Source: Thermococcus sp. (GTDB lineage Archaea; Methanobacteriota_B; Thermococci; Thermococcales; Thermococcaceae). From it: a stretch of DNA of 60,804 bases. Position numbers and translations under genes: made by a program. Below the pieces are notes generated by a model. The model was not told where the DNA came from, made no database searches, and was given only the letters and a program-made list of their open reading frames with translations. Numbering within the stretch: position 1 is the stretch's first letter; every line of letters begins with the position of its first letter. Shown one piece after another: positions 55,987 to 59,755 of the stretch. The stretch is taken from the NCBI RefSeq assembly GCF_026991495.1, contig NZ_JALXBJ010000021.1:1-60804 (forward strand), in the 5' to 3' direction.

Positions 55987-58797
55987 TCACTTCTTCCCCA
56001 TTCCGAGCCACGCCCCCAGTCCGACCTGCCGCGTCTTCTGGTAGCGTAGGTCCTCCCCTTTGTAGCCAAAAGCCTTTAGAATCCTCTCCACCGCTGGCAG
56101 AACCTGGTTTTCGATGTAATAGTCTGCATCGTACTTGTGTTTTGTCGGGTCGAACTCGTCCGCCGGAATCGCCCTGTCCCCTATCCTGCCTGAGCCTTTG
56201 AGAACGATGTAGCTGATGACCGTCCCGGGCCGGATTTTAATCCCCTTTGCAGCCAAGCGCTTCGCTATCGCCACGTGCGGGCCGGTGGCCTTGTAGTCCT
56301 TTAGATCACGGGTTATCTGCTCGTGGATAACCAGTTTTTCGGGCGGAACCTCGTACTTGCTCAGCTTTTCCGTCACCTCTTTGACAATCCTTACAGCTTC
56401 CTTAACGTCACCGTGCTTGAGTATAGCCTCAAGAACCCTCGCCTGCGTCTCCTTTGCTATCTCGCTCCAGTCGCGCCGGACTATCTCAAGTCCGCGCGTC
56501 GTTATCTTGCCCTCTTCGTCTATGACCGCGTACTTCTTCTTCGTCACAAAGAAGCCGCGCCTGTAGAACCCCTCGTACTCAAGCTCCAGAAGGCCAGGCA
56601 GTCTGGGGTTGATGTAATCGAGGAACTCCTTAGCCTTCTTTTTGACGGTTTCGGTGTCTGCTCCAGGTATTGTCGCGAAAAAGCCGTCGGTATTGTGAAC
56701 GAGTATTCCGTTGGCAAAGAACCTGTGGGTTTCTTCAACCTCAATGTCGTAGACGTAGCCGTTGTAGGAGATTTCTTCAATCCTCGATGGATTTCTGAAC
56801 CTGACTTCCTGCAAATCGCGGGATGCAATGGTTATCAGTTTCATGTCTGGAGTTTTGAGGATATCAACGGGTTTTATCTCCAAGTATTCTCCATTTAGGT
56901 AGCCGATGAGCGAGTGATCCTCCGTAACATCCAGATACCAGCTGTTGGTCAGCCAGACGCGGTAAATTTTTTTGTCGGTCCTGTGCCTCATGACGTACGG
57001 AACCTTCCTCCACACGAGCCTGCCTCTGTTGTCCAGCGTTAGTGCCTCAACGCCTTCAAGGATGCAGTACTCCTTCCCACCAATCCTGTAATCAACACGC
57101 TGGAAGAGTTTCTCGATTAGAATGAGCTCAATCCTGCCGTTTCTCTTTATGATAATCTCCGTATCACCAGTAACACTATCAGCATAGAGCACCTTAAAGC
57201 CGAATTTCTCCTCTATTTCCCGCATTGTCATCTCAATGTACTGCCTGCCCCAAGCTGTCACGCTCTCGGCACACTCTTTACAGTACCAACGTGCTTTCGC
57301 ATAACCATAGTAACCATAATATGAGTTGGCCAGGATCTTGATGGCGCGCTGCCTGTAATCGAGGAGCTTCCTCTCGATTGGGTCGATGGTGGCCTTCATG
57401 CGCTTCTTTATCTTCTGCCTCTCCTCCAAAAGGTCTCCGAGGAGGCTCGGAATGAAGCCTGGGAAGTCCTTGCAGAACTTATGGCCGACCTCAGGGGCGG
57501 TATCGTACTCCTTGCAATCTTCCCTGTTGAGCGTGTCTGGTGAGATATTATGTGTTATAATTATGGAAGGATATAACGATTTGTAATCTAAATAAGCTAT
57601 GTTCTCCCACAGCCCCCTCTCCGGTTCCTTGACGTAGGCCCCCGTGTAGCTCTCCCTCCTCCTTTCAAGCTCCCTTGCGCTCGGCTTGTTCGGGGCGAGC
57701 TCGTTCCTCTCGTAGGCTTTCCTCAGCAGGAACCACTCGACGAGGTTGCCGGTGCTCGAGCGCGAGACGTCCCAGAGGCTCTGGCCGATTAAACGGGAGA
57801 GCTGGGCCTCCATTGGGAAGAACTCCCTTCCTAACTCAAAGGTAACCTTCGCATCCTCCATAGAGTAGTGGGCGACCCTTTCTAAGCCCTCTCCCGTTTC
57901 CCAGGCCTGCGCTATCTCCTCCGCGTATACCTTCTCCTTCGGCTTTCCGAAGATGGCCTCGTAGACGGCCTCAAGGGTGTAGGTCGGCAGGTTGACGGTG
58001 CGCCTTATGACTGGATAGAGGTCGAAGTGGAGCCTTCCCTTAACTTCAACGGCAAAGCGGTCGCCCATTCTCTGTATCTTCGGCTCACTCCCGTCCCTTC
58101 CGAGGATGAACTTGACGCCGAGCTTCTCCGAGCGCTTCTTGAGGTAGGCGAAGTCGAAGTTGTCGCCGTTGTAGGTTATGAGCACATCGGGATCCTTCTC
58201 CTTCACGACCCTCAGAAAGCGCTTTATCATGTCCTTCTCGGTGGAGACGACATCGACGTACGGCAGGTCGATCTTCTTCCAGGTTATTACGCGCGCTCCC
58301 CCCTCGTCGGCGTAGCTTATCATGAGAACCGGCCCCTCGGCGAACTCCTCGCCCTCGTGGTAGAGGGTCTCTATGTCGAAGGCGAGCATCTTGAGTTTCT
58401 CCTCGCCCTCCATCGGGATTAAGCCTTTGTCTATGAGATAGCGCTTCGCGAAGGGTATGTCGTACTCGTAGATCTCCACAACGTCTGGATGCTTCCTTAT
58501 CCTGTCCCTTATCGCCGGGACGTCCTGGGGGTGGGTGAAGTAGAGCTTCCAGACCTCTATCGGCCTGCCGAGGAACTTCTTCTCCACCTTCTCGGCCCTG
58601 ACGACCCTAACGGTAGTGCCGTGCCTCTCGGCCGTGATTTTCTTGACGTTCTCGATCGCGGAATCGTCCCTCAGGAGGGCGTAGATGTAGGGCTCGAAGT
58701 TTCTGTCGTAGTCTATCTTGAACTCGCCCTTCTCCTTCTTGAAAATCCTAATGACGGGCCTTCCGTTCTCGGTTATGTAGTCTGTATCGAGGATCAT
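55987..58797 (-). CDS. polB: family B DNA polymerase with in-frame mini-intein
   Basis: Replicative/repair polymerase of Thermococcales. Starting at ATG 58797 ([14 protein letters not shown]) the precursor is 936 residues; removing the intein leaves a 774-residue extein, the length of KOD polymerase. Exonuclease acid residues are visible in [15 protein letters not shown] (D141, E143), [11 protein letters not shown] and DAKVTFELG. Polymerase motifs are [11 protein letters not shown] (motif A), [14 protein letters not shown] (motif B) and YAD/TDGFF (motif C, split by the intein). An in-frame GTG 12 nt upstream is less likely as the start. Sites a and b known to hold inteins in relatives are unoccupied here. 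Confidence 0.95.
56692..57177 (-). other. mini-intein in PolB at site c (motif C)
   Basis: A 162-residue intein begins with Ser after YAD and ends with VHN followed by extein Thr (TDGFF). Splicing blocks are present: the N-terminal [11 protein letters not shown], block B TEDHSLIG (His), a C-terminal [24 protein letters not shown] with the penultimate His and final Asn. No LAGLIDADG homing endonuclease is present; relatives at this site are often over 500 residues. Removal restores YADTDGFF, the catalytic Asp motif. Confidence 0.95.
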
Positions 58798-59073: not shown

Positions 59074-59655
59074 TTAGAACGGGATTTCAACCCCGAGCTT
59101 TTTCGCGTAGTCATTCAGAGCCCCCCAGTCCAGGTAGTCCTTGAACATTTCATACAAGAAAAAGGCATCTTCAATGTCCTTATCACTTCCGAGGTAAAGT
59201 TTGTAGGCGATTTGAAGCTCTATAGGAGAAACATAGAGGGTCTCGTCGTTCAGCCTTATAGTGATTCTCTTTCTTAGAGCCTCTTTGTGAAAACTATCCT
59301 TTGGAAACTTGATTTCCGCATTGGGTATTATCTCTCCCTTTCTGACCATCCTGATTCCCATCTTCTCTTCAAGCATTTCGTAGAGTCCTCCGCAGTCCTC
59401 CGGATTTAAAAACTCAAAACCTGCGTTCAGGGCTTCCCTACACATGGCTATGAATCTCTCTTTGGATACTTTCTCCATTACAAAATCTATATCCTCCGTA
59501 CCCCTCGAACGGCCGAAGAGTATGGTTACGTAGCCGCTGACTATCACGTAGTTGGCATACCTCTCTATGAGGTGCACAACGTCAAGAACAAACTTGTCTA
59601 AGTTGCTGAGCTCCCGTGAAATTCTTATTTCCTCCCTTCCCACTTCAATTCCCAT
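59074..59655 (-). CDS. nucleotidyltransferase-like protein (AbiEii/MNT type)
   Basis: A 193-residue protein with the NTase core VSGYVTILFGRSRGTEDIDFVME (about residues 40-62): G-S/Y loop, Arg/Gly and the Asp-x-Asp pair (EDID). The remainder (KERFIAMCREALNAGFEFL; RITIRLNDETLYVSPIELQIAYKLYLGSDKDIEDAFFLYE) fits the AbiEii-like toxin/antitoxin NTase fold. It could adenylate or otherwise modify a partner or tRNA. ATG 59655 follows GTGGTG. The short helical gene downstream is its likely partner. Confidence 0.75.
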   Translation of the reverse strand: MGIEVGREEIRISRELSNLDKFVLDVVHLIERYANYVIVSGYVTILFGRSRGTEDIDFVMEKVSKERFIAMCREALNAGFEFLNPEDCGGLYEMLEEKMGIRMVRKGEIIPNAEIKFPKDSFHKEALRKRITIRLNDETLYVSPIELQIAYKLYLGSDKDIEDAFFLYEMFKDYLDWGALNDYAKKLGVEIPF

Positions 59656-59755
59656 TGGCACCACTTTAAGTCCATTCTCACACTGATATTTATCGCTTTT
59701 GCAGGCGGGATTTCAGATGCATCATCTTTTTAAACCTCCCATCGAAGTCCCGCCC

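Follow-up and report, generated by a model that had tools for sequence, protein, structure and literature searches.

Foreign-looking, recoded tracts at empty intein insertion points in a Thermococcus polB gene, and codon spelling linked to intein occupancy among its relatives

Introduction

Why intein-free targets survive alongside active homing endonucleases is a long-standing puzzle, on which the locus described here bears. The homing-cycle model of Barzel and colleagues (2011; PMC3229294) includes an empty allele of low susceptibility, X′, and its authors argued that escape has to alter a conserved motif at a cost to the host. A 2023 study of haloarchaeal mcm genes (PMC10643990) described MCM-d-resistant alleles with a proline at the splice junction, a change that stops splicing and not cutting. 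In polB of Haloferax volcanii, Naor and colleagues (2011; PMC3024317) reported that the endonucleases tolerate single synonymous changes, and that when codons were changed on both sides of the site, homing dropped to 27% of colonies. In polB of Thermococcus kodakarensis, the spliced inteins at sites a and b are both endonucleases, PI-PkoI and PI-PkoII (PMC6759347).

The polB gene analyzed here lies in a 60,804-nucleotide stretch of Thermococcus sp. DNA (the window). Its insertion points a and b are identical to those of T. kodakarensis (PMC6759347), but its site a is empty and departs at 7 positions from a KOD1-like 19-base string. X′ of Barzel et al. 2011 (PMC3229294) is likewise a changed-target empty allele, one that supports poorer homing and can spread amid inteins; in the window, site a is empty where relatives are occupied, and its target differs from those of occupied alleles beyond background. 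Unlike X′, the changes seen here are mostly synonymous or conservative, they are found at four sites in two genes, the spellings travel between lineages as short tracts, and the resistance is one that we infer. As in the haloarchaeal mcm genes (PMC10643990), where co-conversion of the flanks was also considered, the position that follows the insertion point separates occupied from empty alleles. There an amino acid differs, whereas here the residue is the same or similar and the difference lies in how the DNA spells it. Gene conversion centered on the intein site, which in H. volcanii polB depends on flanking homology (PMC3024317), is a further point of likeness, but the site-a tracts described below run mostly from empty allele to empty allele, with no intein copied.

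Results

The polB gene of the window, which encodes a family B DNA polymerase, occupies 55987..58797 on the minus strand. Its open reading frame translates into 936 amino acids, including a mini-intein at site c, and full-length Thermococcaceae relatives are 71–92% identical to it. Insertion points were placed by the intein boundaries of occupied relatives. Point a lies between K406 and S407 (57579..57580, minus strand), where inteins of 1029–1086 bases sit at the same point in 14 relatives. Point b lies between N491 and S492 (57324..57325, minus strand), where inteins of 1380–1614 bases share one point in more than 30 relatives; the window polB has a gap of 0 at both. The boundaries confirm the original prediction, made from the sequence of the window, in its placement of site a at 57579/57580. 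Site c holds a 486-base insert (56692..57177, minus strand) that lies between D540 and the T of TDGFF and has an identical size in four relatives. At 162 amino acids, this mini-intein is of insufficient length for an endonuclease domain.

Around point a, the composition of the gene changes sharply. Over 57541–57600, 14 of 60 bases are G or C, against 35/60 in the preceding block and 39/60 in the following one, exactly as first counted. The AT-rich coding run itself extends slightly beyond the limits first given for it (57541–57600): patch A, the recoded codons 400–420 round the empty site, spans 57538..57600 on the minus strand. Third positions are G or C in 4 of these 21 codons, vs 18 of the 19 upstream codons 381–399; GC3, the share of such third positions, is 75% over the window polB. 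The amino acids had been described as conserved, which holds for most of the patch but not for Y405-K406 (F-R in intein-bearing alleles) or I418 (V in most). As a background for GC3, we used 52,784 segments of 21 codons from 180 GC-rich genes in a 309-kb sample of the same genome. The window polB is the sole gene in which a segment with four or fewer G/C-ending codons is set between GC-rich flanks (0.85); two further segments as low were found, both in one gene whose flanks reach just 0.42–0.50.

Within the window polB, the lowest GC3 segments start at codon 400 (0.19, site a) and codon 489 (0.38, site b). The milder AT shift that had been noted at motif B is real (GC3 0.32 over codons 492–510). 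For a view of the family, polB codons were mapped in the 93 genomes in which the gene was matched, in most cases at full length. Among the 54 high-GC genomes, the polB segments of lowest mean GC3 lie at sites c and a, and site b was not seen as a general AT trough. It is also in the segments at these two sites that third-position GC is most decoupled from that of the whole gene, with slopes of 0.55 (site a) and 0.62 (site c) where the median is 1.01. The lowest mean of all (0.53 vs 0.75) falls on codons 534–554, exactly at site c. This trough is common to empty and occupied alleles, and no codon at site c follows occupancy.

Over the whole of polB, the nearest relative of the window allele is that of genome G051 (allele L012), with 90% identity and a joining support of 99%. 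Patch A has other kin: it is 95% identical to polB of genome G056 (L115) and 70% identical to that of G051, and whole-polB identity to G056 is 83.5%. Informative sites delimit tract A, a G056-like mosaic covering codons 401–453 (57439..57595, minus strand), with 32 sites for G056 and 2 for G051 (permutation P=0.0002). Tract B, which is G038-like, covers codons 489–507 and the empty site b (57277..57331, minus strand), where the serine codon TCA replaces AGY; here 15 sites favor G038 (L032) and 1 favors G051 (permutation P=0.0002). The quartets behind the 32:2 and 15:1 counts were picked after the patch had been seen, and each donor is the best of about 80. Both tracts have bounded ends and a local kinship to a distant lineage that exceeds kinship to the overall nearest relative. 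The gene neighboring polB is not especially close to that of G056, which is 82% identical there vs 85% for G051 and three other genomes. Window polB and G056 also have in common the G/C-ending codons TAC405, TCG407, TCC411, and ATC418, plus the residue I418.

A 20-base core, GATTACAAATCGTTATATCC (codons 404–410; 57569..57588, minus strand), spans insertion point a. Despite a degenerate search pattern, it was found exactly in 4 of 115 genomes (G000, which is the window genome, G001, G042, and G056), always at polB site a, and all four carriers are empty there. Over the first 380 codons of polB, an AU test rejects the grouping of these four alleles (p=0.0004), whereas the tract unites them (support 95). 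Inside the short tract, with 72–135 columns and low power, a grouping of the window allele (L001) with L012 was not rejected (AU p=0.62). An all-pair GENECONV-like scan gave the pair L001 and G056 a pairwise P of 0.04, globally non-significant, and found recombination throughout polB; intein sites were not singled out, and the scan was dropped as a pointer to them. Since these two analyses are indecisive and recombination in polB is frequent, the case is built on three things: the counts of informative sites, the 20-mer common to four genomes, and the rare codons. Judged by sequence, the patches at sites a and b are best described as short foreign, gene-conversion-like tracts, and the foreign-allele origin first proposed for patch A is supported by its 95% identity to G056 and the 32:2 informative sites.

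A donor in mobile DNA was considered and rejected: the tract had no match among plasmids or phages, and the degenerate core pattern had none in viral contigs, where the sole polymerase is 22% identical. Elsewhere in polB, the window agrees with many genomes over codons 610–676 and L012 differs, probably through a foreign tract in G051. Genome G001 is a member of a different genus group. Its polB (L122) is 84% identical to that of the window, but the rRNA-methyltransferase-like gene beside the window polB is only 69% identical there. The polB of G001 may be a wholesale transfer.

To relate spelling to inteins across the family, every polB codon (774) was scored against site-a occupancy in 80-odd Thermococcaceae polB genes. 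Codons 406 and 407, which flank the insertion point, outranked all the others as predictors. AGR-TCN at this pair is found in 14/14 occupied vs 2/70 empty alleles (Fisher p=4e-14), with both exceptions in genus g3, and the link held by about 11:0 in eleven independent tree comparisons. Empty alleles have CGC/CGT, AAA/AAG, or ATG at codon 406, or AGC/AGT/GCT at codon 407. The AGR and TCN spellings are jointly depleted among them (2 vs 5.9 expected, P=0.015). In the KOD1-like allele L156, codons 404–410 of the joined site give the 19-base string GATTTTAGATCCCTGTACC, which we take to be the PI-PkoI target. This string ranks first of 766 for excess mismatch of empty over occupied alleles; the window allele mismatches it at 7 of 19 positions, compared with means of 3.0 for occupied and 5.5 for empty alleles. 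At site b, S492 is spelled AGY in 33/33 occupied alleles, TCN in 11/51 empty ones, and TCA in the window, and AGY-TAY is present in 30/33 occupied vs 14/51 empty alleles. No clear association between codon and occupancy emerged at site c in the 774-codon scan. A serine codon changes between the TCN and AGY boxes by two base changes. On the polB tree, such switches number 14 at S407 and 9 at S492, compared with 0–3 at 15 other conserved serines.

The association was replicated in RfcS (80 genomes, 326 codons). At the P-loop site, the top occupancy predictor of the 326 codons is T60, directly after the insertion, and codons 84 and 85 lead the ranking for the NA|S site. GCY-TCN at the NA|S site is found in 16/16 occupied vs 8/63 empty alleles (p=3e-11), with GCG-AGC in 40/63 of the empties. 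AAG-ACA, also in RfcS, is found in 17/24 occupied vs 3/55 empty alleles (p=3.5e-9). Independent pairs for the two RfcS sites gave about 8:0 of 9 and about 9.5:0 of 13. At RfcS site c, whose insertion point is 146|147, codon 147 had no link to occupancy. S85 of RfcS has 23 serine-box switches; the other serines that switch (150, 151, and 159) are all 13 codons or fewer from site c, and no switch is needed at the four others. Serine switching near vs far from an insertion differs at p=0.006, for a distance cut-off that was set after the data had been seen.

Mosaic tracts were identified across the family by sister–donor comparison, with the expectation corrected for the density of informative sites. 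Summed over the three sites of polB, the 50 tracts span an insertion point 27 times vs about 12.1 expected (total P<0.00025; P=0.003, 0.04, and 0.02 for single sites). Nucleotides around the sites are conserved to about the median degree for the gene, so the enrichment is not explained by extra homology. At site a, 8 of 10 mosaic tracts involve empty alleles only, which fits an exchange of recoded targets, and at sites b and c an occupied allele is involved in most, which fits homing with co-conversion. AT-rich or foreign codons do cluster at insertion sites, as the original prediction had anticipated, in GC3 troughs at c and a (not b) and in these mosaic tracts (27 vs about 12). A dip in tree congruence, tried as a sign of a recombination hotspot, is strong family-wide, but within high-GC genomes other segments equal it; consequently, the dip is partly a loss of GC signal at sites a and c, and it was rejected.

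Discussion

We consider it probable that the patch is a short foreign tract, acquired from an empty and differently spelled allele through an endonuclease cut and its repair. The polB copy of the window would have been overwritten round site a by DNA of another Thermococcus whose allele was empty and spelled differently, and round site b, in a separate event, by DNA from a third lineage. The presumed trigger is cleavage of empty alleles at these points by intein homing endonucleases, with the break repaired from any polB template available. An intein-bearing template would lead to homing. An intein-free template with a recoded target would leave a short conversion tract, recognition by the endonuclease would be lost, and such tracts would accumulate. 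This account draws on the mosaic structure of the gene, the confinement of the core to empty alleles, the link between codons and occupancy, and the enrichment of tracts at insertion points, all of which were observed; that cutting set off the exchange, that the DNA moved into the window polB, and that the new spelling resists cutting are the parts supplied by interpretation. On the evidence of its letters, the window patch is a foreign, recoded, and probably homing-resistant target. The original prediction had named recoding that blocks homing as one option, and this fits well because recoded targets mark empty alleles family-wide in polB and again in a second gene, RfcS, with the cleavage step being the conjectural part. 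Against resistance stand the two polB empties with AGR-TCN and the eight RfcS empties with the supposedly sensitive GCY-TCN. The lack of a clear codon link at site c of polB and at codon 147 of RfcS also counts against the account, as does the published tolerance of these enzymes for single synonymous changes (PMC3024317).

The main rival is minimal co-conversion, by which inteins bring a few base pairs of donor flank with them, empty alleles are native rather than resistant, and the patch is an ordinary recombination tract. Homing is a form of gene conversion in which donor flanks are copied (PMC3024317, PMC10643990), recombination is common across polB, and occupied alleles keep to one serine box with variable third positions, in line with a founder effect. 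We regard this explanation as rather unlikely, but it keeps real weight, and the evidence against it is indirect. The occupancy link is limited to about two codons, a very short reach for co-conversion by recombination; AGR and TCN occur together in fewer empty alleles than expected, and the empties also switch serine box among themselves 8–11 times; and the site-a tracts are mostly empty-to-empty. Co-conversion also leaves unexplained why the donor tracts of the window genome center on two empty sites.

The original prediction also offered the patch as a scar of intein loss, in which a former site-a intein was removed by recombination with a foreign empty allele whose codons stayed behind. 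An identical footprint would be expected, namely a foreign empty-allele tract over the site, and related species do have site-a inteins. However, none of the nearest relatives (G051, G067, G027, and G020) has an intein at site a, and site a of the window holds no remnant of an intein or of its usual flank, so a loss is unsupported, and we judge it improbable. The whole tree has 11 changes of site-a occupancy, which may be gains or losses. Nor are the patch codons like those of intein-bearing alleles, a match that had been put forward as a check: the best occupied allele is 73% identical and the best empty one 95%, and the 20-mer occurs in empties only. An origin apart from inteins altogether, through AT drift confined to the patch, a regulatory signal inside the gene, or an artefact of metagenome assembly, seems more improbable still. 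The window assembly is a draft in 92 contigs and several of the nearest relatives are metagenome-assembled, but the core recurs in two other assemblies, within contigs 906 kb and 378 kb long. Over 81 bases, the identity of the patch to G056 is 94% and falls short of the 100% that a simple chimera with that genome would give. Drift would have to produce a patch that is unique among the 52,784 segments, and AT pressure alone is insufficient for the G/C-ending codons and I418 in common with G056.

We also put forward a broader proposal, synonymous immunity, tentatively and as possible rather than probable. Under it, empty copies of intein-targeted genes in Thermococcales would stay intein-free largely through silent or near-silent recoding of the target, and resistant spellings would move between species as short tracts, probably spread by endonuclease cuts. 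The pattern suggests that hosts can often evade the intein through codon changes that preserve the protein, and can bring in the altered spelling on a short tract. Two codons would predict which natural alleles are cuttable, at four sites in two genes, and this prediction is directly testable, as the enzymes are available and a genetically tractable archaeon exists. In a partial coverage of the literature, we found no report of synonymous recoding at insertion codons that splits empty from occupied alleles, nor of short inter-lineage tracts carrying such recoding; given that coverage, the absence of reports is not proof of novelty.

Several other features of these genomes were observed. In the polB genes of L034 (G058), L155 (G061), L167 (G088), and L168 (G083), the contig ends just after or near an intein site. 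Sites with inteins may therefore be frequent break points in draft assemblies, and counts of occupancy may be too low. The polB of genome G016 (L119) has a +1 frameshift near codon 503, about ten codons downstream of site b, which leaves frames of 538 and 304 codons and is either a broken gene or a sequencing error; polB is dispensable in T. kodakarensis (PMC6759347). Upstream of the window polB, at 59074–59664, lies an AT-richer gene (about 40–50% G+C per 60-base segment) for a 196-amino-acid nucleotidyltransferase-like protein, possibly a recent arrival. Elsewhere in the window genome, an MCM helicase frame (L003, on G000:C81) has about four intein-like inserts, and L002 (G000:C56) and L004 (G000:C20) include an RfcS gene interrupted by two full-size inteins and a gene for a radical-SAM-like protein that has a single intein.
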